A stretch of DNA of 64,000 nucleotides, from positions 1 to 64,000 of IMG/VR virus record IMGVR_UViG_3300017917_001123; one strand, written 5' to 3'. This DNA comes from a virus. The translations under genes were made by a program, and so were the position numbers. Positions 24,353-38,849 of this stretch are shown here, in pieces (within the stretch, counting starts at the first letter, position 1; the number at the start of each line of letters is the position of its first letter). Below the pieces are notes generated by a model, which had not been told where the DNA came from, did no database searches, and was given only the letters and a program-made list of their open reading frames with translations.

Positions 24353-24599
24353 CGAACGCTATCGTGCTATTAAATGGGCAGAACAGCTTTGTCGAGATCT
24401 CATGGATCCTAGCAAAACTCCTAGAGTGCCGAAAACTATTCGGCAACGGGCTTACAGCGTTCTGCGGCATTTTCCCGAAGAATACTATTTGGCAATGTTA
24501 GCAGAAGCAAGGCCAGATATTATAGAACGAAGAGGTAAACCATTTGATCCTCTGTACAAAATGGTTAAAGATTACGAATTTAAAAAGGAAGAAAAATGA
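24339..24599 (+). CDS. BPSL0761-family protein
   Basis: 86 residues. The opening [20 protein letters not shown] and the middle [20 protein letters not shown] match the small BPSL0761 family known from beta- and gammaproteobacteria and their phages. No biochemical function is known to me. It is coupled to clpP by a four-base overlap. Confidence 0.75.
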
Positions 24600-25216
24600 A
24601 CCTAGTACCAATGGTAGTTGAAAAGACCAGTCAAGGCGAACGTGCTTATGACATTTACAGCCGCTTACTCAAAGAGCGCATTGTTTTCCTAAACGGCCCT
24701 GTAGATGATCACAGCGCAAACTTGATCGTAGCACAGATGCTGTTCTTGGAAAGCGAAGATCCTACTAAGGACATTAACTTCTACATTAATAGCCCAGGTG
24801 GACTGGTTACTGCTGGTTTGAGCATTTATGACGTTATGCAGTTCGTTAAATGCGATGTAGCAACCTATGTTATGGGTCAAGCGTGTTCAATGGGTTCGTT
24901 CCTGGCACAGGCAGGTGCCAAAGGCAAGCGTTATGTGTTGCCCGAATCACGCACAATGATTCACCGTGTTAGCTCAGGTACTCCAGGTACCAAAGGTAGT
25001 GTTCACGTTCAAGAACTACAATTTGAAGACGCTAAACGCACTTTTGAAGAAAGCCAGCGCATTAATAAGCGTCTAACTGAACTGTATGTGCGCCACAATA
25101 CCGCAGGTAAGACCTACGAAGAAATGTTCGAAGCGATGAAATTTGATACATTTTTGGGCTCCGAAGAAGCGGTTGCTTGGGGTCTAGCAGACCACGTTAT
25201 CAGCAAGCACGAATAA
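24596..25216 (+). CDS. clpP: ClpP protease subunit
   Basis: 206 residues, near the length of bacterial ClpP. The Ser-His-Asp triad is complete: S98 in GQACSMGS, H123 in [10 protein letters not shown], and D184 in [12 protein letters not shown]. The oxyanion region [11 protein letters not shown] is intact. ClpP forms a double seven-membered ring that degrades proteins fed by a Clp ATPase. The phage also encodes a ClpA (52415) whose ClpP-contact loop is present, so both halves of the machine are supplied. It could remove host regulators or process virion proteins. Confidence 0.95.
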
Positions 25217-26641: not shown

Positions 26642-26728
26642 ATGCGGTCTCAGGCATTCATCCCGCAATATAAATTCTGCGTGTCATCAAACTTACTGAA
26701 AAGGGCAAGAGATGACTTGGATCATTGA
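26642..26728 (+). CDS. Leader-peptide-like small ORF ahead of queD
   Basis: A 28-codon frame (MRSQAFIPQYKFCVSSNLLK at its start) opening exactly at the predicted transcript start. It overlaps the queD start by 17 bases, with queD in a different frame. The invariant six-base promoter-to-ATG spacing shared with real genes is the main reason to call it. It could couple translation of queD or regulate it; a functional peptide is also possible. Short length keeps this tentative. Confidence 0.45.
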   Translation: MRSQAFIPQYKFCVSSNLLKRARDDLDH

Positions 26729-27263
26729 TAAAACATTTGAATTCTGCTATGGTCACAGAGTTCACACACAAACATTAAACGGCGAATATGCCGCTGACCT
26801 AAAATGCGCTTGTCGCCATCTTCATGGACACGAAGGCAAGATGCAGGTATTCCTTACAGCACCGCAACTAGATAAAACTGGTATGGTTACTGACTTTAGA
26901 CACCTAGAATGGCTAAAGAAATGGATCAATACATATATTGATCATCAGTTTGTTATTGATAGGAACGATCCACTTTATGATAAAATTATTGGCAATCGTG
27001 GGCTTGTGCCTGTACATATTCCTGATACTGATCATGTCGCCGGATGGCATTTGGACCTCACTGGATTGGAGTCAAACTCTCCGGAGTATGAATATTACGA
27101 AGGGTTCATGGTAGTAGACTTTGTTCCAACTTCCGAAAAGCTCAGTGCTTGGATGGCTGAACTTGTAGAAGCCAAAATGAAGAAGCTCGGAGTAACTGTA
27201 CATCACATCGATTGGTGGGAAACTCCAAAATCTCGCTCTGTATTTTACCGAGACGGCTTGTAA
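26712..27263 (+). CDS. queD: QueD-like 6-carboxy-tetrahydropterin synthase
   Basis: 183 residues of the T-fold pterin synthase family. Zinc ligands are visible in FCYGHRVH (H15) and CACRHLHGHEG (H38 and H40), with the catalytic Cys beside them (C34). QueD makes a precursor of preQ0/queuosine and of the 7-deazaguanine DNA modifications some phages use. No queC, queE or folE is in this window, so either they lie elsewhere or the host completes the pathway. Confidence 0.85.
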   Translation: MTWIIDKTFEFCYGHRVHTQTLNGEYAADLKCACRHLHGHEGKMQVFLTAPQLDKTGMVTDFRHLEWLKKWINTYIDHQFVIDRNDPLYDKIIGNRGLVPVHIPDTDHVAGWHLDLTGLESNSPEYEYYEGFMVVDFVPTSEKLSAWMAELVEAKMKKLGVTVHHIDWWETPKSRSVFYRDGL

Positions 27264-27292: not shown

Positions 27293-27466
27293 ATGATTTC
27301 ATATACTGTAACACTCGAAGAAGACCCCGCAACTGGCGAATTAATCATGCCATTTCCTCCCGACCTGCTTAACCAAATGGGTTGGGATTTTGGAGACACA
27401 ATTATTTGGCATGATAACCAGGACGGGTCTTTTTCTTTGACTAAGAAAGAGCAAGATGACAACTAA
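27293..27466 (+). CDS. AbrB/SpoVT-like small DNA-binding protein
   Basis: 57 residues from MISYTVTLEEDPATGELIMP. The pattern with PFPPDLLNQMGWDFGDTIIW and a final beta strand fits the swapped-hairpin AbrB/MazE fold, in which dimers bind DNA. It has no toxin partner nearby. Its end overlaps uvsE by eleven bases, so it may regulate that gene or simply travel with it. The frame is open upstream, but the promoter dictates this start. Confidence 0.7.
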   Translation: MISYTVTLEEDPATGELIMPFPPDLLNQMGWDFGDTIIWHDNQDGSFSLTKKEQDDN

Positions 27467-28487
27467 GCGAATTGGCTTTGCCTGTAAGTGGATCGACCAT
27501 GCCGGGCAAGTTGATGGCATCAAGCCCAAAGACGAATGTAAGATCTATAACACAGGAAGCACTACTGTGGCTTGGCTCAATCGTCAAACTAAGTCTGCGG
27601 CCGAAGAAAAGCTGTGGGATTTGATGAAAGGTAACATCGAATCTATTCGTAAACTAGTAACCAAAGTAGGAGAACAAGATGAGCACCTTAGAATGGTTCG
27701 CATTTCAAGCGATATTTTGCCTGTCTACACTGAGTCTAGTTGGCGGTATTTTTGGCAGTTACCTGACGTTCGACAATATGCGGAACGGCATTTTGCCGAA
27801 GTCGGTCGCATCGCACGTGATCGCAATGTGCGCCTTAGTTTCCATCCTGGGCAGTTTACCGTTCTTGCTAGCGATAATCCTGATATCGTAGAACGCAGTA
27901 TTGAAGAATTTGAGTATCACGTTGATATGGCTCGTTGGATGGGCTATGGACAAAAGTTTCAGGACATGAAAATCAACGTACATATCGCCGGTCGACAAGG
28001 TCCAGACGGCATCCGAAAAGTGTTAGGTCGACTAACACCCGAAGCACGTAACACACTGACAATCGAAAATGAAGAAATTACACACAATCTTGACACCTGC
28101 TTGGAACTTGCGGACGTGGTTCCAATCGTTCTTGACATCCACCACCATTGGATCAACTCTGGTGAATATATTCAACCTACTGATGACCGTGTTAAAAAGG
28201 TGGTTGATTCTTGGCGCGGCGTTCGCCCTACTTTACATTATTCTGTATCACGGGAAGAGCATCTTACTGACCATCCCGCAACCGTATCACCCTGTCTTAG
28301 TACGCTGATCGAAAGCGGGCACAAAAAAGCAAAGCTCAGAGCACATTCTAATTTCTACTGGAATACAGCAGTTAATGAATGGGCACTGAGCTTCTTGGAA
28401 ACGCACGATATCATGTGCGAATCTAAGGCTAAGAACCTTGCTAGCTTTGCGTTAGCCAGCGAGGCTGTTAAACTTAAACTGATTTAG
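27456..28487 (+). CDS. uvsE: UV damage endonuclease UvsE
   Basis: 343 residues of the TIM-barrel UVDE family. Typical segments are RIGFACKWIDHAG at the start, LRMVRISSDILPVY, RLSFHPGQFTVLAS, the metal-site strand INVHIAGRQG and the central VPIVLDIHHHWIN. The enzyme nicks DNA 5' to UV photoproducts, starting alternative excision repair. T4 uses DenV for this purpose; here a different enzyme fills the role, consistent with sunlit water. It overlaps the convergent gene by 14 bases. Confidence 0.93.
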   Translation: MTTKRIGFACKWIDHAGQVDGIKPKDECKIYNTGSTTVAWLNRQTKSAAEEKLWDLMKGNIESIRKLVTKVGEQDEHLRMVRISSDILPVYTESSWRYFWQLPDVRQYAERHFAEVGRIARDRNVRLSFHPGQFTVLASDNPDIVERSIEEFEYHVDMARWMGYGQKFQDMKINVHIAGRQGPDGIRKVLGRLTPEARNTLTIENEEITHNLDTCLELADVVPIVLDIHHHWINSGEYIQPTDDRVKKVVDSWRGVRPTLHYSVSREEHLTDHPATVSPCLSTLIESGHKKAKLRAHSNFYWNTAVNEWALSFLETHDIMCESKAKNLASFALASEAVKLKLI

Positions 28488-28752
28488 TAGTTTTTTTGCT
28501 ACGTGTAGTTTTTGCCTTAACAGCAGGTTTCTTAGCTTCTGCTTTAGGTTTACGGCCAGCTGTCTTTTTAGCGGCTGGCTTTTTCTTTGGCTCTGCCGCA
28601 GGTGCTGGTTCAGCAACAGGTGCTGGTTCAGCAACAGGTGTTTCAACCTTGTATGGTGCTGGAGCTTCAGCAGGTGTTTCTACTTTCTTCGCAGGACGGA
28701 AAAGTAGATAACCAGCAATAACAACAACAACAAGAATAACAATAATTTCCAT
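28474..28752 (-). CDS. Membrane-anchored Lys/Ala/Pro-rich protein
   Basis: 92 residues. An N-terminal membrane segment (IIVILVVVVIAGYLLF) is followed by a Pro/Ala/Glu linker with a duplicated AEPAPVAEPAP pattern and then a histone H1-like tail (KKKPAAKKTAGRKPKAEAKK and on). The tail could bind DNA or acidic polymers, tethering DNA to the membrane. Near-identical 19-base repeats encode the linker (28606-28640). A late-type TAAATA on this strand (28789-28784) lies upstream. Confidence 0.75.
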   Translation of the reverse strand: MEIIVILVVVVIAGYLLFRPAKKVETPAEAPAPYKVETPVAEPAPVAEPAPAAEPKKKPAAKKTAGRKPKAEAKKPAVKAKTTRSKKTTKSV

Positions 28753-28783
28753 AATAGGGGTTTCCTTTAAAAAGTATGTGTTT

Positions 28784-28801
28784 TATTTACACCTATAAAT
28801 A
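28784..28801. promoter_or_regulatory. Divergent late promoters
   Basis: TAAATA on the minus strand (28789-28784) and an exact TATAAATA on the plus strand (28794-28801), only four bases apart. The plus-strand element is followed by a hairpin ATCAGA/TCTGAT (28801-28824). The arrangement would serve the Lys/Ala-rich protein and the SufC-like gene late in infection. Confidence 0.65.
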
Positions 28802-28831
28802 TCAGAGAAGAAGAAAAATCTGATGCGTGAC

Positions 28832-28861
28832 TTGCTTTGCTAACTAATAACATAGTATAAT
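28832..28861 (+). promoter_or_regulatory. Promoter for a leaderless mRNA
   Basis: TTGCTT (28832-28837), an 18-base spacer, TATAAT (28856-28861), six bases to the ATG at 28868. With the late promoter upstream, the SufC-like gene could be made both early and late. Confidence 0.65.
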
Positions 28862-28867
28862 AACAGT

Positions 28868-29602
28868 ATGCTGAAAATAAAAAATCTAACCGCAGTAGCA
28901 CACGAACAACAAGTACTAACTGACATCAACTTACAAGTCGAAGAAGACGAAGTCCATGCGATCATTGGCCCAGAAAAAGCTGGAAAAACAGCCCTAATGT
29001 ACGCACTTGTTGGGTTACCTTATATAGAGGTAGCTGAAGGAACTATACACTATAAACGTAAAAAAATAAACGCTATGCCTATGCATGAGCGTAGTTTGAG
29101 CGGCATTGTTGGTGTATTTCAAGAAATGATCGAAGTGCCTAATTTAACAAATTGGGAGCTCTTAGAAGCTGTTTTAAAATATCGCAAAGATCCAAGAAAC
29201 ATAGACGATCTAAAAGAACTATATGTAACTCATTGCTTAATGCTAGGGCTAGATCCAATCCACGGTGATTTAGAAGCATCAAGCGACACAATGGACTATG
29301 AGCAAGCAGTTAAAAACGAACTGCTGATAATGTTCATGCTAAACCCTAAACTAGCACTAATTGATAACTTTGATGAAAAGTTAGACGAAGAAAATAAAAA
29401 GTTGCTAGCCGAAAGCATTGCTGATATGGCACACGCCGGTGGCCGAGCAACTATTGTATTTTCAAAAAACAAAGCAGTATTAGAAACAATCAATCCTACT
29501 CATGTACACGTTATGGTTGATGGAAAGCTAGTACTATCTGGTGGAAAAGAATTATTACAAAGGATAGAAGAAGATGGGTATTCAGAGCTTTCTGCAAGCT
29601 GA
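28868..29602 (+). CDS. SufC-like ABC ATPase with altered catalytic motifs
   Basis: 244 residues. Start, length and order follow SufC, the ATPase of the SUF iron-sulfur assembly complex. Walker A is kept (GPEKAGKTA, K40) and the Q-loop Gln is present (Q85). The signature motif (usually SGGE) is replaced by TMDYE near 141-145. The Walker B ends D166-N167 instead of Asp-Glu, and the switch His is Lys (K200 in FSKNK). It may bind ATP but hydrolyse it poorly or not at all. It overlaps the SufB/D-like gene by 29 bases. These comparisons are from memory of SufC sequences, not a computed alignment. Confidence 0.8.
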   Translation: MLKIKNLTAVAHEQQVLTDINLQVEEDEVHAIIGPEKAGKTALMYALVGLPYIEVAEGTIHYKRKKINAMPMHERSLSGIVGVFQEMIEVPNLTNWELLEAVLKYRKDPRNIDDLKELYVTHCLMLGLDPIHGDLEASSDTMDYEQAVKNELLIMFMLNPKLALIDNFDEKLDEENKKLLAESIADMAHAGGRATIVFSKNKAVLETINPTHVHVMVDGKLVLSGGKELLQRIEEDGYSELSAS

Positions 29603-30404
29603 AAAGGGTGATCCGGATTGGCTGTTTAGTCCAGATGAATATTTTGGAAAACAATTTAAACTATCGGACGCAAATACTATAGAGCTAAAGGACGGAAGGA
29701 CCGATAGCATTACTCTACGCCTAAGTCCTAACGAATCAGGAATGCTAGCCAAGCATCTTCGTATTGATGTTAGGGAAGAAGCAACTCTCGACTTAATTGT
29801 TATTAACGAATCTAGTCCCAAAACACAGCAGGTCTTTATCTACGATATTAAAATTCGTGAAGGCGGCCTTTTAAACCTAGGGATCTTTGCCAAGGGCGGA
29901 AAGTTTAACAAACATATATTTCAAGTAAGCATTGAAGACGGTGGAAATTTTGCCAGCTATGGTTACATTAGCAACAACGACGGCGGCGATACTGAGGTCA
30001 TTACCAAAGTCTTTCAACAGGGCGTACATTCATTGTGTACGCAGTTAATTGGAGCCCAGGCCGGAAAAGACAGTCAAACAGTCTATCAAGGAATGGTTCG
30101 AATTGACGGTGAAGCAGAACTTGCTGAAGCTGGCTTAGAAAGCGTTAACATTGTTACAGGAGATAACGGTCGTTGCTGGAGTAGACCAGAAGTGTTGAGC
30201 GAAACAATTACAGCAAAGACCCGATACGGAAGCCAGACAACTTGTTTAGATAGCAACATTACCTATTATCTAGCAAGTAAGGGGTTGCCACCAGAAGTAT
30301 CTCAAAAGGTTGTACTTAACAGCTTTCAAACTCCAATCTTTAACCTTGTTAAACAGGAAGATATTCGAGAAGAAGTAGAACAGTTATTCAATACGCAAGA
30401 ATAA
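29574..30404 (+). CDS. SufB/SufD-like beta-helix protein
   Basis: 276 residues, about half the length of SufB, covering the right-handed beta-helix core and the C-terminal helical part. The segment SRPEVLSETITAKTRYGSQT with YYLASKG further on aligns without gaps to the SufD/SufB C-terminal region. There, the conserved Cys and His of KCSHGAT-type sequences become Thr216 and Tyr218. A Cys at 201 sits near, but not exactly at, the SufB acceptor Cys. It presumably pairs with the SufC-like protein; whether they still build Fe-S clusters is doubtful. It directly precedes the giant virion gene. Confidence 0.75.
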   Translation: MGIQSFLQAEKGDPDWLFSPDEYFGKQFKLSDANTIELKDGRTDSITLRLSPNESGMLAKHLRIDVREEATLDLIVINESSPKTQQVFIYDIKIREGGLLNLGIFAKGGKFNKHIFQVSIEDGGNFASYGYISNNDGGDTEVITKVFQQGVHSLCTQLIGAQAGKDSQTVYQGMVRIDGEAELAEAGLESVNIVTGDNGRCWSRPEVLSETITAKTRYGSQTTCLDSNITYYLASKGLPPEVSQKVVLNSFQTPIFNLVKQEDIREEVEQLFNTQE

Positions 30405-30482: not shown

Positions 30483-33400
30483 ATGGCAACTACTTCATCA
30501 AATAGACTAATAATTAACCTTGGTTCGCAAGCAAACGATGGTACAGGTGACGCAATTAGAGCGGCATTTGACAAGGTTAATCAAAACTTTGAGACAATTT
30601 TCAACGTAGCAGGTATCGGTTCGGGCCTGTTATTCACTAAACTAGCAGATGCTCCAAGATTGCTGTCGGCCAACAAAATGTTGGTTACAGACGCAACAGG
30701 TTTAACTGTAACACAAATGTCTATAGTTGGTGCCCAGGGCATCCAAGTAACTGTAGACCAAGGCCAAAAGCGTGTTTTAATTGACGCAACAGTAACAAAC
30801 TTAGTTAACGATCCTAACCCAGTTCTTTCTAATAACTTGAGCGGCGGTGTTGTTAATCGCGGTATAAATTTTGCTGATCCAGTTGATGATCAAGACATCG
30901 CAACAAAGAAATGGATCTACGATAACTTCCTAAATCGCGATTCTAACTACCAATACATTTCAAGTACAAACCCAATCACAGGTGCCAATGTTACATCTAC
31001 GATCGTAGAAGGTAGCACACTACGCCACAATATCCAAATTCAGCCTACAGGTGTAAACACAGCATCTAACGCAGGAAAGGTTATTACACTATTTGACAGC
31101 GACGGTGTTAGCCTAAAAGACTTTGATGTGTCAGTAGGTGCTTGGAGACCAAGCCACGTAACTCGTAAAGATTATGTTGATACAAAGATTTCTTTACAGG
31201 GTATCGACACCATTGATCCAGAGACAGGACAAATTAATCCTAGCTTTGGTCAGATGACCGGACCTCTATACCTATCGAGAGATCCGCGAGAACAAGACCC
31301 AGGCAACGTAGCCGCAACAAAGGCCTATGTCGACTCTGTAGGTTTTCCAAGCCGTCAAAACTTTTATGTAAGTTTGAATGGTAGTGATGCTCGTTATGAT
31401 ATTCCAGCATACAAGCGAGGACGTTCTTTTGCTTGGGCTTTCCGTACAGTTAACAAAGCCGCTCAGGCCGCATTACAGTATTCCAAAGCATCTGAAATTA
31501 AGCTAGGTGTTTACCAGCGTGTTATTACTTCTAACAACTACAAAACTCCTGTTGAGATTTTAAGTATTGGTCCAGGAACAATTTCTGGAACATATAAAAT
31601 TAGTGTAACCTACACAGGCGGAAACGGTACTGATCCTTTCATTGAAAGAAGTATTCGTCCAGGACAGTTCTTACAAGGTATTAGTACAAACGCAATTGGT
31701 GAAATTCTAAACGTTGCTTTAGAGCCAGCAAGTAACGTCGAAGAATACTATGAAGTCCGTTTAGTCGACTACGCAGATACATTCGAATCACCTATTACTC
31801 CTAGCGACCTAGCAGGTGAAGTAACATTTACTCTGTTTGAGCCAAACTTAATTGAGATTCCAGATTTCTGGATCGGTTATAAGTTTGTAGTCGATAGTGT
31901 AGCAGGCGGCGGTGTCGGTGAAATTATTGGATTCGATTTATACTACCACCCTAACGGTAACATTTATAACCAAGTTATTGTTAGAATGAGCGAGCCATTA
32001 AGTAGCACAAACATTATTAGTGGTGACAACTGGCACGTTTATTCTGGTTACTTCAGCGTTGGCGAATCTTTACGCTACGGTCAAAAGTATAACAAACTAG
32101 AAATTTCTATTCTTGTTGAGTCTGGCGAATTTAACGAACAGCTACCGATTAGAATTGGCGACAACATTTCTGTTAAAGGTGATGAATTCCGTCGTACAAT
32201 GATCAAGCCAGCCTACGTTAGAGGTACAGCACGTTGCGGTATTTCTACAAGTAAGTGGGCTAACATTTGGTTCCGCAGAGACACGCAGATTGACGGTATT
32301 ATTGTTACACAATTAAACACATCAACTGATTATGCGGCTCTAACTACAGCAACTCCAGATGGTGTAACAAACGATGCTTCAACAGAAGTAATCACATTTA
32401 CACTAGGCTCAGGTACTGCTGATCCAGACTGGATTAAGAAAGTCTTTATTGGAGCAGGTGGCCGAGGTGAAATTAAAGCAGTTCTAGGTAATACATTCAC
32501 GGTTGACATTGCTGAAAACGACAACGGTATTAGAAGAATCGATAGTGCGGCACCTATTGCCGCAGGTGATTGGAGCATTTATGAACCATACAACTTTGGT
32601 TACCATTACCTAAGAGATGCTAGCCGTCCATTAAACTTCTTAGCAGGTCCTAACCCAGGTGGTTACAACTTCGCTTCAAAGATTCTATTAGACAACATCG
32701 AGTTTATTAAGTCCGAAGTAATTGGTTGGATCGACCAAACATACAGTGGCGGATTTACATATAACGTAGCTGACTTCCAACGCAACACTGGATTGTTAGT
32801 CGATGCGGTTGCTCAAGATTTATTATTCAGCGGAACAAGCCAAGCAACATTTGCGGGCTTGTTAAATTGGAATCGAAACGGCGTACAATCTGCCTTTGCT
32901 GGCGGTGTAACTATTGCTTCAAATGCTGTAACATACATTAAAGAATTAGCACAGAAAGTTGTCCAGAAAGATTTAACAGGTACAAGATACCAAAGTGCTG
33001 TAACTCAAACAACATCTGGCATTGGAGCGGCAACTCCAGCAGAAGCATCTACAATCGCTGCCGACATAGATGTTATTCTAAATATTTTCTTGAACGGAAC
33101 AGCTGATGTTCAAGATACAATTATTCCAAACGGATTAACTAAGAGTTCAGATCCTGATGTACAGAATGCTCACGATTTGTTACAAGCAAACAAGCTCTAC
33201 ATCCAAGCAGAAGCTATTGCCTTTGTTGAAGCAACCAAAGCTAATGGATTTACATACGATCAAAACAAATACACTCAAAATTTTGGATTTATTGTTGACG
33301 CAGTAAGTACAGACCTTCTATACGGTGGTAATAAACAATCTGTCCAACTTGGAACATATTACTGGAACTTTGATGGCAGTTCATCAGCAATTGCAAACGA

Positions 33401-36400
33401 ACTTTCACAAACAGTTGCGGCTTATAACTACATCAAATCAATTCTGCCAGATATCATCCAAGGTACCGCTCTAGCAGTAACACAACAAAATACTGTTCCT
33501 CAAGTTATTATTGGCTACGGTCCAGGAGATGCTTCTGCTGTAACACAAGCACAGGCTAAGATTGATGTTGTTACTAACATTACTTCTAACGGTCCAAGTG
33601 TGGCTAGTGCTCAAAGCACATTACCGTTAACAAGAAGCACTGATCCAGATATTATCAACGGAGCAATTTTACTATCAGCAAACAGAACATTTATTATTGC
33701 TGAAACTATTGCGTTTGTTAATAATTCTTTCTTAACAGGATTTGTTTACGATAGAGAAACTTGCCGTAGAGACATTGGCTTAATTGTCGATGCGTTAGCA
33801 TTTGACTTAAAGAACGGTGATATTAACTCATCAATTAACGCGGCTGATAGCTATTACGCAGGCAATGTTCAACAAGTTCTTCAAAACGAACTAGCACAAA
33901 CTGTGGGCGCAATCGGTTATATTAATACTCTAGCGCAACAACTATTTGATCAAACTCCTATTACAACACTATACGGTTTTGTTCCACAGAGAATAGACAC
34001 TATTATTGGTGAAGTAGGGGCAAAGGCTCAAGTTACCAACCTAACTACAGCAATGCAGGGTATCTTAAACAACGATCCTGCGTTCAACCCACCTAAGTAT
34101 AACGACGAAATGGACATCTTCTTAATGAACGATGCGACCATGTTACGTTACTTAGGCGGTAACGGTCACGGTGGCTTTATGAAGGTACTTGACCCAGAAG
34201 GACAAATTAAATCTAAGTCACCATATACTCAGACATGTTCATCATTCTCACAGAGTATTGGCCGACACAGATTTGCTGGTGGTTTCTTTGTTGACGGATT
34301 CTGCGGTAACTTGCCATTAGTTACAGCAGCCGGTACAGCAAGTCCAGATACAAACGGTAACTTAATTTACATTCCAGTAACTGGCGTGAGACGTTTACCT
34401 GTATTCCCAACTTACTTTATTCACGAAGGTGTTAAGTACGAAGCGGACTACATGCAGAATTATGACCCAGTTAACCAAACTGGTACTCTTGTTCTAAACC
34501 CAAACAACCCAGGTGGTATTAGTTCCGTAAGTGTTAACAGCGGAAATACACAAAACGAATTTAAACCGAACGTTGCTCAACTACCAGTAACATTTAGTTC
34601 TCCAGGCACACCTGGTGGTGCTACTGCTCGTGGTTATGCTGTAACTAACGCATCTGGTAATATACAAACCATTGTTATCACATTCCCAGGTGTAGGATAT
34701 GTAACAGAACCAAGTGTTAGCCTAGGCGGTGCTACGTTTAACTTTATTATCGACGGCGGTGCTATTACATCAATGTCTGTCAACTACGGCGGTATTGGTT
34801 ATACAACAGGTACACAAATTAATATTGCAAGTCCAGGCGGTGCCGGGTTAACTGCTACCGCAACAATTACAGGTGTTGACGGACTTGGCGCAATTACTTC
34901 TATCAATTTAGTATCAGGCGGTACAGGATACACTAGTGTTCCAACTGTTACATTTGGTCGTCAAGTATTCAGCGCAAACTTAGTAAACGGCTTTATTGGC
35001 AATTTACCATCAAAACTAGAACTAATTACTGCTGGTAACCGTTCTATGTTAGCCAACGACTTTACACAGTTAAACGATTTAGGCTATGGTATTTTTGCTA
35101 CCAACGGTGGATTCATCGAAAACGTTTCGATGTTCACTTACTACTGCTATACCTCATACTACGCACTGAACGGTGCTATTCTAAGAACTATTACAGGTTC
35201 TACAGCTTACGGTACTTACGGTCTAGTCGCAGAAGGTTCAAACCCATTAGAGGTACCAACTGCGGTTACAATGTCAGACGAATTAACACAGATTGCTACT
35301 GTTTATAATCAGGCTCCGTACATTAACGCCAAAGGCGGTGCTGACATTTATGTAACACTAGACAGCACCTACGGTTACCCTCCATACTCTAATGGGGAAA
35401 TTGAGATCAATCACAACGGTATTAGAAAGACATATTCTCTAAGATCTGCTAAACAGATTTCTGGAAACTTATATGCTCTATCAATTGATTCAACCGGTGG
35501 TGGATTATACGCTATTGTTCCGAACGGCGAGCCGTTGACAATTCGTGTTAAGTTTATTTGGAGACTAGGCGGCTTAAATGCTAAGACATTAACTCGTCCA
35601 AGTACAGTTTTAACACTGGCGGAAAACTCAATTTACAACTACCGTATTCTAGAGTACACAGACTTAGGTAGTGACTATGCGTTAGCTGAAGCTGATCAGT
35701 CATATGACTACATTCAACTAACTCCATACAGTCAGAGTAACCTATATCGCCAAGGTGTTGGTCGCCCAACTATCAGCGTTGCTGGTAGTGGTTACACTTC
35801 GACAACTACACAGTATGGTGTAACATTTGACAGTCCTCCATCAAAGACTGCGGTAGTTAACGGTGTTCAGGGAACTGTTGATAGTCCAGTAACACAGTTA
35901 TCGATCGCAAGTTCTAGCGGAGCAATTCACCCTGGTATGAGAATTACTGGTGCTGGCGCTATTGCTAACCAGTACGTAACTTGGGTGAGCTTGGATAGAT
36001 CTATTATTCAAACAAGCCAGGCACAGGTTTGGTCGACTGCAAGTGCTACACTAACATTTGTTGGTACTACCGCAACTGGTTATGCCAAGGCCAACGGAAC
36101 AAGCATTACTGGAATCACAATTACTGATCCCGGTACTGGTTACGACACAGCGCCAGGTGTTACAATCGTACCCGGAAGTGGTGTACAAGCTCAGGCAACT
36201 GTTTCCTTAAGCGGTACAAGCGGAACTAACATTGTTAAGGTTCTTCCTTTAAATGGACAAGATACTGCTCGTATTAACATTGGACTAACAAGCCCAACTC
36301 CATACTATTACGTATTTGGTTACGAAGGTCAGACTTATAAGATTACAGATTATAAGACTCCTGTTCAAACAGGTCAAGCATGGGGCGAAATTCAAATTTC

Positions 36401-38849
36401 TGGTTACAATAACGCATTGGCTACTCTAACAAGAGAAATGATGCTAGATCCATTGTATGCCGGTGTAACTAAAAACACTCCAGGATCTGTTACTGTTCAA
36501 ATTTCAACATTACGTGCTACAGCTCACGATATGATTGACGTCGGTACTGGCGGTTACGCAACTTCCAAGATACCGAACGACTTATACGGACCTCCAACAA
36601 TTACTCCAAACCCTGCTCAAGAAGTTCTTGAGAAAGGTAAAGGTCGTGTTTACTATGTAACAACAGACCAGGACGGTAACTTCCGCGTTGGTAAGTATTT
36701 TGCCGTTGACCAAGGCCGCGGTACTGTTACAATTAGTGCTCCAATTAGCTTAACTGGTATTAGTAAGTTGAGTTTCAAGAAGGGCGTCGAAGTTGACGAG
36801 TTCTCTAAAGACGACACCATGGCAACCGGTAGCCTAAGCAAGGTACCTGTAGAAACAGCTATTATCGGTTACATTGATAAACGTCTAGGTATTGATAAAT
36901 CTGGCTCTGTAGCAACTGGTATTATTGGCCCAGCTGTTATGGCGCTAAACGGTGTTAATGCTATGACTGGTTCCTTAAACATGGGTTCCAACAAGATCAT
37001 TAACCTACAAGTTCCGACAAGTTCAAGTGACGGCGCAACTAAAGGTTACGTTGACGGCAAGATAAGCCTAGACGGTATGGATGAAAACACAAATGATGGC
37101 GGTCAAGATGCCGGCATCATGAATGGTCCATTACGTCTAAATGCTGATCCGGGTATAATTACCGCTGTAACAACAGCAACAGTAAACATCGGTAACACAG
37201 TTGTTTACTTAAACTCAACAGCCGGTTTGTATAAAGGCATGCAGTTGAATACTAGCGGTTTTGCTCCTGGCGCATTTATTTCGCAGATTAATAATAGTAC
37301 TGCTATTACCGTGAGCGCGGCCGCAGTAGGTCAGGTATTAAACGGCGTAACTGTTACATTTGATCCAGTTCGCCAGGGCGCAACAAAACGTTATGTCGAT
37401 CGTTCAGCACAAATTACTAAACTACGTGACGTTGTTTTAACAAGTGCGGCAGATACTGACTTATTAATGTTTGGTGGTTTACTAAGTGCTAACAGCAATA
37501 CTTCGACTCCGCTGTACGAAGCAAGTCGTAGCGTTATTAACGTAACAAATAATACTTCGGCAATTACTAATACAGCATCATCAAGTGGCGGTGGTAGTGA
37601 TATTACAGTATCTCGTTCAAACAATCAAGTAACATTCAAGTTAGTCGGTGGACAAGGTGCGGCAAACCCAATTACTAACTATCACGTTAACGACAATGCG
37701 GCAATTGCCCAAAGCAAGTTAAACATGCAGGCCGCAGGTGTAACACCAAGTTCAGCAGGCGTTGTTCAAGCAAGTCGTGGTCTAGCAGTATTTGATCAAT
37801 ATGTGTTTACAGCAACTAACGGTTGGATTAGCTTAGTCGATTCTGCTACTACTACCGACGGTGTTGCTCCAAGCAAACTACGTCAAGTAGGCGCAGGTGG
37901 TGCATTAATTGGTAACACAAACTTAGCCGCAGGCGGAGCAATGAGCTACTTGTCTAGCTCTACTGTCCGTGCTTGGTTAGGTGTTATTGATTCTGCGTCA
38001 GGCGGTACATTTAACGGTGACCTAAACGTTAATAATATATTTGCCAATGCGGCTGGTACATACGACATTGGATCTTCAGGAACTCGATTTAGAGCAATCT
38101 ATGGCGGAACTGGTAGCTTTAGCGGCAACGTAACTGATAACGGTAACCGTGTACTAACAAGCGTAACATTAAGCGCAGGTGACAACATTGGTGTAGCAAG
38201 TTCTAAGACTGGCGCAGACTATGCTCTATCTGTAACTAACTTAGGTGTACGTACTATTGCTGGTACTGCTAACCAAGTGTTTGTTGGTGGTGGATCGGCA
38301 ACTGCCGCAACAACTGGTACTGTAACACTAAGTTTACCACAAAACATTCATACTGCGGCAGATGTTCAGTTTAACAAGGCAAGCCTAAAATACCTAACAG
38401 CGGTAGATGCTGGTAGTGGTTGGGCCGTTGTTCAAGGAACATGGAAACTAGACACAAATGCTAGCTTCCAAGCAACATACGCTGACTTGGCAGAACGTTA
38501 CACCAGCGATGTTCAATACGAGCCAGGAACAGTTCTAGTGTTCGGCGGTGAAAAAGAAGTTACAATCAGTTCTGTTGCTAACGATCGTCGAGTAGCAGGT
38601 GTTGTTTCTACAAATCCTGCTTACAACATGAACACATCAATTGAAGGTGTTGATATTGCTCTACAAGGCCGTGTACCATGTAAAGTAGTAGGATACATTA
38701 AGAAAGGTGACCTAATGGTAACTAGTTCGATTCCAGGCGTTGCGACAAGCAATGATGATCCTAAGACAGGTACTATTATTGGTAAGGCATTGGAAGATTA
38801 TAACAGCAATGATGTTGGCATAATCGAAGTAGCAGTAGGAAGACTATAA
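30483..38849 (+). CDS. Giant virion fibre/structural protein
   Basis: 2,788 residues. The fibre-type motif ATKxYVD or variants recurs near residues 139, 227, 277, 2185 and 2299. Three related ~165-residue units begin near 739, 907 and 1072 (for example GFTYNVADFQRNTGLLVDAV and GFVYDRETCRRDIGLIVDAL). Several GYxxxPxV modules follow near 1402-1481, 1769 and 1886. The C-terminal domain (from about 2666, ADLAERYTSDVQYEPGT) matches the end domain of many aquatic T4-like fibres and ends in a compact beta fold. It is probably a long tail-fibre or baseplate-attached protein, strongly enriched in Thr, Asn and Gly. Confidence 0.88.
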   Translation: MATTSSNRLIINLGSQANDGTGDAIRAAFDKVNQNFETIFNVAGIGSGLLFTKLADAPRLLSANKMLVTDATGLTVTQMSIVGAQGIQVTVDQGQKRVLIDATVTNLVNDPNPVLSNNLSGGVVNRGINFADPVDDQDIATKKWIYDNFLNRDSNYQYISSTNPITGANVTSTIVEGSTLRHNIQIQPTGVNTASNAGKVITLFDSDGVSLKDFDVSVGAWRPSHVTRKDYVDTKISLQGIDTIDPETGQINPSFGQMTGPLYLSRDPREQDPGNVAATKAYVDSVGFPSRQNFYVSLNGSDARYDIPAYKRGRSFAWAFRTVNKAAQAALQYSKASEIKLGVYQRVITSNNYKTPVEILSIGPGTISGTYKISVTYTGGNGTDPFIERSIRPGQFLQGISTNAIGEILNVALEPASNVEEYYEVRLVDYADTFESPITPSDLAGEVTFTLFEPNLIEIPDFWIGYKFVVDSVAGGGVGEIIGFDLYYHPNGNIYNQVIVRMSEPLSSTNIISGDNWHVYSGYFSVGESLRYGQKYNKLEISILVESGEFNEQLPIRIGDNISVKGDEFRRTMIKPAYVRGTARCGISTSKWANIWFRRDTQIDGIIVTQLNTSTDYAALTTATPDGVTNDASTEVITFTLGSGTADPDWIKKVFIGAGGRGEIKAVLGNTFTVDIAENDNGIRRIDSAAPIAAGDWSIYEPYNFGYHYLRDASRPLNFLAGPNPGGYNFASKILLDNIEFIKSEVIGWIDQTYSGGFTYNVADFQRNTGLLVDAVAQDLLFSGTSQATFAGLLNWNRNGVQSAFAGGVTIASNAVTYIKELAQKVVQKDLTGTRYQSAVTQTTSGIGAATPAEASTIAADIDVILNIFLNGTADVQDTIIPNGLTKSSDPDVQNAHDLLQANKLYIQAEAIAFVEATKANGFTYDQNKYTQNFGFIVDAVSTDLLYGGNKQSVQLGTYYWNFDGSSSAIANELSQTVAAYNYIKSILPDIIQGTALAVTQQNTVPQVIIGYGPGDASAVTQAQAKIDVVTNITSNGPSVASAQSTLPLTRSTDPDIINGAILLSANRTFIIAETIAFVNNSFLTGFVYDRETCRRDIGLIVDALAFDLKNGDINSSINAADSYYAGNVQQVLQNELAQTVGAIGYINTLAQQLFDQTPITTLYGFVPQRIDTIIGEVGAKAQVTNLTTAMQGILNNDPAFNPPKYNDEMDIFLMNDATMLRYLGGNGHGGFMKVLDPEGQIKSKSPYTQTCSSFSQSIGRHRFAGGFFVDGFCGNLPLVTAAGTASPDTNGNLIYIPVTGVRRLPVFPTYFIHEGVKYEADYMQNYDPVNQTGTLVLNPNNPGGISSVSVNSGNTQNEFKPNVAQLPVTFSSPGTPGGATARGYAVTNASGNIQTIVITFPGVGYVTEPSVSLGGATFNFIIDGGAITSMSVNYGGIGYTTGTQINIASPGGAGLTATATITGVDGLGAITSINLVSGGTGYTSVPTVTFGRQVFSANLVNGFIGNLPSKLELITAGNRSMLANDFTQLNDLGYGIFATNGGFIENVSMFTYYCYTSYYALNGAILRTITGSTAYGTYGLVAEGSNPLEVPTAVTMSDELTQIATVYNQAPYINAKGGADIYVTLDSTYGYPPYSNGEIEINHNGIRKTYSLRSAKQISGNLYALSIDSTGGGLYAIVPNGEPLTIRVKFIWRLGGLNAKTLTRPSTVLTLAENSIYNYRILEYTDLGSDYALAEADQSYDYIQLTPYSQSNLYRQGVGRPTISVAGSGYTSTTTQYGVTFDSPPSKTAVVNGVQGTVDSPVTQLSIASSSGAIHPGMRITGAGAIANQYVTWVSLDRSIIQTSQAQVWSTASATLTFVGTTATGYAKANGTSITGITITDPGTGYDTAPGVTIVPGSGVQAQATVSLSGTSGTNIVKVLPLNGQDTARINIGLTSPTPYYYVFGYEGQTYKITDYKTPVQTGQAWGEIQISGYNNALATLTREMMLDPLYAGVTKNTPGSVTVQISTLRATAHDMIDVGTGGYATSKIPNDLYGPPTITPNPAQEVLEKGKGRVYYVTTDQDGNFRVGKYFAVDQGRGTVTISAPISLTGISKLSFKKGVEVDEFSKDDTMATGSLSKVPVETAIIGYIDKRLGIDKSGSVATGIIGPAVMALNGVNAMTGSLNMGSNKIINLQVPTSSSDGATKGYVDGKISLDGMDENTNDGGQDAGIMNGPLRLNADPGIITAVTTATVNIGNTVVYLNSTAGLYKGMQLNTSGFAPGAFISQINNSTAITVSAAAVGQVLNGVTVTFDPVRQGATKRYVDRSAQITKLRDVVLTSAADTDLLMFGGLLSANSNTSTPLYEASRSVINVTNNTSAITNTASSSGGGSDITVSRSNNQVTFKLVGGQGAANPITNYHVNDNAAIAQSKLNMQAAGVTPSSAGVVQASRGLAVFDQYVFTATNGWISLVDSATTTDGVAPSKLRQVGAGGALIGNTNLAAGGAMSYLSSSTVRAWLGVIDSASGGTFNGDLNVNNIFANAAGTYDIGSSGTRFRAIYGGTGSFSGNVTDNGNRVLTSVTLSAGDNIGVASSKTGADYALSVTNLGVRTIAGTANQVFVGGGSATAATTGTVTLSLPQNIHTAADVQFNKASLKYLTAVDAGSGWAVVQGTWKLDTNASFQATYADLAERYTSDVQYEPGTVLVFGGEKEVTISSVANDRRVAGVVSTNPAYNMNTSIEGVDIALQGRVPCKVVGYIKKGDLMVTSSIPGVATSNDDPKTGTIIGKALEDYNSNDVGIIEVAVGRL

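Follow-up and report, generated by a model that had tools for sequence, protein, structure and literature searches.

A SufC–SufD-like gene pair with replaced catalytic residues shares one genomic slot with complete SUF operons in large T4-type phages

The locus is located in a 64,000-nucleotide stretch of viral DNA (referred to below as the window), which covers positions 1–64,000 of the IMG/VR record IMGVR_UViG_3300017917_001123. Two genes of the window, one sufC-like and one sufD-like, lie between uvdE and one giant fibre gene (Table 1); their products are termed C and D, respectively. The preliminary description of this DNA placed a coupled SufC-like and SufB/D-like gene pair directly before the giant fibre gene, and its coordinates are correct. 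The end of the sufD-like gene is separated from the fibre ORF by 78 nt. On the left side, one short ORF runs divergently from the pair; short divergent ORFs of this kind are present at the equivalent place in many relatives. Further upstream in the same region, the window encodes one 6-pyruvoyl-tetrahydropterin-synthase (QueD-like) protein (26712–27263) and one ClpP-type protease (24596–25216), both of which recur in relatives.

Table 1. Features of the uvdE–fibre interval in the window
Feature	Position	Strand	Remarks
uvdE (UV damage endonuclease)	27456–28487	+	left border of the variable Fe-S/SOD slot
Divergent ORF between uvdE and the slot	28474–28752	−	92 aa; small, membrane-anchored, low-complexity
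TATAAATA, T4-type late-promoter core	28794–28801	+	74 nt upstream of the sufC start
sufC-like gene (probable pseudo-ATPase)	28868–29602	+	244 aa
sufC/sufD overlap (3′ end of sufC, 5′ end of sufD)	29574–29602	+	29 nt
sufD-like gene	29574–30404	+	276 aa; β-helix core and C-terminal helices, without N-terminal helical domain
Giant fibre gene	30483–38849	+	2788 aa; right border of the slot

Over the window alone, TATAAATA is not above chance (3 copies versus 4.5 expected). In the gap that precedes the first slot gene in 78 related loci, it occurs in 12 sense copies versus 0.5 expected; these loci are not independent, and owing to their kinship the nominal p value overstates the enrichment. Another 11 copies are on the other strand of the gap, oriented for the divergent gene. 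At positions 28753–28867 of the window and the equivalents in relatives, the motif is strongly enriched on both strands of the divergent gap. This arrangement suggests that divergent T4-type late promoters are located upstream of the slot operon, and the sufC–sufD pair is probably expressed late.

Both proteins are homologous to SUF components, as also indicated by phmmer/hmmsearch against PDB sequences. C matches the NCBIfam sufC profile with an E-value of 1.9e-44, its 152 bits being below the trusted cut-off of 213; the sequence identity to E. coli SufC is only ∼30%. D matches Pfam SUFBD_core (E-value 2e-19) and NCBIfam sufD (2.5e-23). The AlphaFold models of C and D have pLDDT values of 91 and 88, respectively. 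In Foldseek searches, the C model matched E. coli SufC (5awf_C) with a TM-score of 0.89, and the D model matched E. coli SufD and SufB chains with TM-scores of 0.65–0.75, the best superposition being that with 5awf_B (0.75). The core match of D begins near residue 33, and the N-terminal helical domain is absent; every phage relative of the family has the same short D, also those with a full operon. In the SufD tree, D groups with cellular SufD against SufB with an SH-aLRT support of 100. The designation SufB/D-like in the preliminary description thus holds at the level of the SUFBD family and is refined to SufD; the tree rules out that D is SufB or archaeal SmsB.

Residue equivalences were assigned by alignment to E. 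coli SufC, SufD and SufB. C keeps the Walker A motif GPEKAGKT with Lys40, Gln85 of the Q-loop and Asp166 of Walker B. Different from the E. coli protein, its SGGE signature is replaced by TMDYEQ, and the equivalents of Glu171 and His203 are Asn167 and Lys200, respectively. The alignment confirms what had been described for C, namely that Walker A and the Q-loop are kept, whereas the signature, Asn167 and Lys200 are changed. The ABC catalytic set of C is incomplete: SGG, Glu and His are absent, and Lys40 and Asp166 are present. In D, His360 and Cys358 of E. coli SufD correspond to Tyr218 and Thr216. Both replacements had been read correctly; however, position 216 is uninformative. E. coli complementation does not require Cys358 (PMC6006206), and position 216 is Ala in phages with a complete SUF operon; loss of Cys358 was therefore rejected as evidence, and only position 218 of D carries weight. 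The sulfur acceptor/ligand Cys405 of SufB aligns with Ser190 of window D, in a different column from 216. The residues essential in E. coli are Lys40, Glu171 and His203 of SufC and His360 of SufD (PMC6006206), of which the window keeps only Lys40. Shifted catalytic residues, a possibility that the preliminary description had raised against itself, are excluded, because, in 42 sequences, the aligned blocks surrounding Walker B and the H-loop are gap-free. Judged from these residues, C is probably a pseudo-ATPase and not a working SufC.

IMG/VR was scanned from D and, separately, from C. The pair is present in about 50 contigs, and the pairing is obligate: C precedes and overlaps D in every one (two contigs end inside C), and neither C nor D alone was found in the scans from both sides. 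Wherever both ends are present, the overlap is usually 23–32 nt in length, and it is 11 nt in L037 and L038. Several pair-bearing records are jumbo-size (326–355 kb), and the T4-type gp23 capsid gene is present in 8 of the 11 records tested. No cultured close relative was found, the best UvdE match being <49%.

Three architectures share the slot from uvdE to the fibre gene. Class I, represented by four relatives (L040–L043), carries one complete SUF operon, sufB-C-D-S-E-(T)-A; SufB, SufS, SufE, FeS_assembly_P and the A-type carrier were confirmed by Pfam, and some of the operons include glutaredoxin or Fe/Mn-SOD. Class II (L070–L074, L078 and L079) has the order sufC-sufD-sufS-iscU-iscA, without sufB; the short contig L073 shows only C, D and SufS. 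One decayed version of class II, with a degenerate SufS of 334 residues, is found in L037–L039. Class III (the window, L001–L017 and L020–L036) contains C and D only, and sufB, sufS, sufE, sufT and sufA are missing from the slot; the pair is often preceded by SOD, though not in the window. Further viral contigs with SufB were also observed (L048–L067), several with whole SUF operons in other order and without such a fibre slot; some may belong to other phage lineages and some may be host DNA. The sufBCD genes of Microcystis phage MaAM05 were considered as an isolate precedent and rejected. The end of that GenBank record (MW495066.1, 259819–273876; L248) reads like a bacterial chromosome, with pxpA, panB and panC in addition to sufBCDS, and the record is probably mislabelled or contains host contamination.

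The preliminary description pointed to related phages for the conservation of the substitutions; there, a graded series was observed. In class I, C has intact SGGE, Asp-Glu and His, and D has His218. Class II C has SAGE, Asp-Asp (Glu replaced by Asp) and His, and is in worse state in L073 and L037. In class III C the signature is absent altogether, whereas Glu167 is kept in 73% and His200 in 52% of the sequences; some members outside the subclade of the window may retain hydrolysis without a normal signature. In the window subclade, which comprises seven contigs, Glu and His are both missing in all. The SufC tree was built from 71 proteins, 65 of which are cellular or of this phage family. On this tree, Glu167 was lost at least four times, His200 at least eight times and SGG at least three times; His218 of SufD was also lost at least four times. 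Lys40 and Asp166 are unchanged in the 65 SufC proteins. Because Lys40 and Asp166 are invariant and Glu167, His200 and SGG were lost repeatedly, nucleotide and magnesium binding look selected, and hydrolysis does not.

The pair is under strong purifying selection in close relatives. For class III pairs with unsaturated dS, omega (dN/dS) is 0.04–0.10 for C and 0.02–0.05 for D, or about 0.03–0.1 overall. For the L005–L020 pair, which belongs to the catalytically stripped subclade of the window, the values are 0.04–0.06 and 0.025–0.05, respectively, and those of the L009–L015 and L025–L026 pairs are similar. Between the window and L001, dS is saturated and omega was left out; the value taken for the window is that of its subclade. 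Loss of partner genes and catalytic residues would also be expected of one non-functional relic on its way out, but frames that are intact and overlap in about 50 contigs, omega of 0.03–0.1, invariant Lys40 and Asp166 and pLDDT of ∼90 make such a relic very improbable. The earlier statement that the fold is preserved while the chemistry is lost is supported by the confident models, the purifying selection in close relatives and the repeated loss of residues essential in E. coli. The pair probably no longer serves as the original enzyme and has taken on another role.

In the SufC tree, class III forms one clade (SH-aLRT 98) beside the full-operon phages; with the tree rooted by cellular SufC, it stands among the full-operon phages, some forks being open. 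In the SufD tree, one clade (96) on the SufD side unites the D proteins of all three phage classes. Classes I and II group together (99), and class III is set off by one weaker branch (79), being sister to I and II, not nested within them. The cellular outgroups examined and other phage SUF loci carry SUF operons, and classes I, II and III share the slot, the shortened D and the overlap; loss from a full operon is therefore the most parsimonious order. The ancestry of the pair is that of a SUF operon. We infer that the window pair is the eroded remainder of one phage-borne SUF operon, the full-operon ancestor itself resting on parsimony.

The slot is not specific to SufCD. Among the best 80 uvdE loci in IMG/VR, 67 have a fibre or tail gene and lack SufCD; their slot is occupied by combinations of SOD, IscU, IscA and the small divergent conserved gene, or by nothing recognised. 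The uvdE–fibre interval is thus a recurrent phage Fe-S/oxidative-stress slot. Many uvdE phages show the order uvdE–SOD–IscU–IscA–small divergent gene–fibre (L166–L245).

The preliminary description had considered reuse of the pair as a module for fibre proteins. The β-helical D, together with C, could act as chaperone or structural cofactor of the adjacent giant fibre in fibre or virion assembly: in all contigs that extend far enough, the pair adjoins a fibre or tail gene, one late-promoter-like site is upstream, and D is β-helical like many fibre parts. However, the pair inherited its place from the full SUF operon, in which sufA directly adjoins the same fibre gene (L041 and L042). In relatives devoid of SufCD the fibre is still there, and the slot contains IscU/IscA or nothing; the fibre type that follows the pair is a different one in L009, L012, L015–L017, L025 and L026. 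Since the slot holds SOD, IscU or IscA in SufCD-free relatives, a functional connection cannot be read from proximity to the fibre. The data therefore lend no support to fibre reuse as the reason for the location, and we regard an assembly role as quite improbable. Iron loading of an HxH or Cys-rich fibre was also rejected; the fibre contains no HxH and only 6 Cys in 2788 residues.

The phage of the window has other Fe-S genes elsewhere. In its 331,570-bp record, which may be incomplete and was searched by family and stretch by stretch, D is the only SUFBD match, no second SUFBD protein was found, and no class-V desulfurase (Aminotran_5) was found. The SufB scaffold and the cysteine desulfurase SufS, by which a SUF system is recognized, are thus missing from the record. 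C and D are homologues of SufC and SufD, yet they lack the functional hallmarks of both proteins and of the SUF system. The phage encodes IscU and two A-type carriers at 282.6–283.7 kb, and 15 radical-SAM domains at 240–277 kb. These domains (G000:C1:240100-277000; L246 and L247), located outside the window, are packed within ∼37 kb, and many have CX3CX2C motifs. Such an array near IscU and A-type carriers is unusual for a phage and plausibly represents an Fe-S client set. Records that encode IscU, among those tested, have several radical-SAM domains; the others have at most one weak match. In the long class III records G002 and G003, IscU was not found and only A-type carriers were; the tie between SufCD and phage IscU is one of co-occurrence only. 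With IscU, A-type carriers and as many as 15 radical-SAM domains, these phages seem to depend on Fe-S supply and not to destroy it.

This apparent need bears on the idea, also raised in the preliminary description, that the pair is a dominant-negative inhibitor, in which dead C and D would enter host SufB/SufC/SufD complexes and jam the host SUF scaffold. The losses do strike residues whose mutation kills SUF in E. coli (PMC6006206), and SufB was dropped while the two subunits able to poison the host complex were kept. However, C shares only ∼30% identity with E. coli SufC and D is without its N-terminal domain, and a phage with its own IscU/IscA and 15 radical-SAM domains appears to depend on Fe-S clusters. 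The losses are also gradual and lineage-specific, and look like relaxed constraint on hydrolysis, not selection for a poison. We therefore consider inhibition of host SUF unlikely.

The pair might instead still serve as a scaffold for Fe-S clusters or in iron loading, with ligands that were re-invented, such as Cys201 and His114. All 33 class III sequences tested have Cys201, where classes I and II mostly have Ala, and no phage D protein of the family deviates from His114; archaeal SMS demonstrates that the position of cluster sites in SufC/SufB-type complexes is not fixed (PMC12192291). Set against this, the His360 equivalent is lost, Cys211 and Cys220 are mostly lost, and SufB and desulfurase were not found in the class III records tested. 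On balance, we regard such re-invention as improbable. The apparent loss of all six conserved Cys in class III (Fisher p ∼0.004) was set aside as polarised evidence, since these Cys are mostly absent from cellular SufD and several are gains of classes I and II.

Among known systems, the closest structural analogue is the E. coli SufC2D2 subcomplex (2zu0); SufBC2D (5awf) was compared alongside it. Like these, the phage pair has SufC and SufD folds, with the β-helix and C-terminal helices of D kept, and like E. coli it has the overlapping gene order C-D. Different from them, it has no adjacent SufB, SufS, SufE or SufA, D is without its N-terminal domain, and Glu171, His203, the signature and His360 are gone. 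SufC2D2 is considered probably non-physiological in one review (PMC6006206), yet the phages appear to retain exactly that pair. Bacterial SUF operons are matched by L040–L043 in gene order and intact C motifs, whereas the window has only stripped C and D. The archaeal SMS system (SmsC2B2) is also a two-protein SufC plus SufB/D-like system without partners; however, it has a SufB-type protein, an intact ATPase and cluster-binding Cys on SmsC, whereas phage D is SufD and the sole Cys of window C is residue 123, with none near the C-terminus.

Our preferred explanation, which we hold with about even confidence, is that the pair is an eroded SUF-operon remainder that forms a SufC2D2-like pseudo-complex, binds ATP without turnover and acts in Fe-S supply through protein contacts. 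The ancestor of these large T4-type phages would have carried a complete SUF operon between uvdE and the giant fibre gene. The window class would then have dropped sufB, sufS, sufE, sufT and sufA, leaving sufC and sufD as an obligate overlapping pair. C and D most likely still form a SufC2D2-like complex, which should bind Mg-ATP, given the invariant Lys40 and Asp166. In the window subclade, ATP hydrolysis is predicted to be very poor or nil, with the signature, the catalytic Glu and the switch His missing, and a nascent cluster would presumably not be ligated as by SufBC2D, SufB and His360 being missing. The pair may thus serve as an accessory or regulatory Fe-S module that works by protein contact in late infection, its partners being host SUF/ISC or the phage IscU and A-type carriers. 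A more specific version, possible though unlikely in our judgement, is that a full SUF operon was acquired, its scaffold was swapped for IscU, and the leftover SufC–SufD became an ATP-gated, non-hydrolysing switch on Fe-S delivery via IscU or host contact. If true, this natural SufC2D2 would be a new kind of regulator of Fe-S biogenesis.

Phage Fe-S auxiliary genes, sufE, nifU and others, have been described in marine viromes (PMC8940887). Like those, the present genes belong to Fe-S biogenesis on phages; different from them, being single genes read as auxiliary metabolism, the phages here carry whole SUF operons and one stripped, conserved SufCD pair. In the literature searched, the coverage of which stopped short of subscription papers and preprints, only single phage Fe-S genes were found (sufE, nifU; PMC8940887), and we found no earlier report of complete Fe-S assembly operons in large T4-type phages. 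These phages offer a graded natural series from the working SUF operon to the stripped SufCD pair, all of it in a single phage lineage and a single genomic slot. The series makes it possible to test the roles of SufC and SufD apart from SufB, ATP hydrolysis and cluster ligation.
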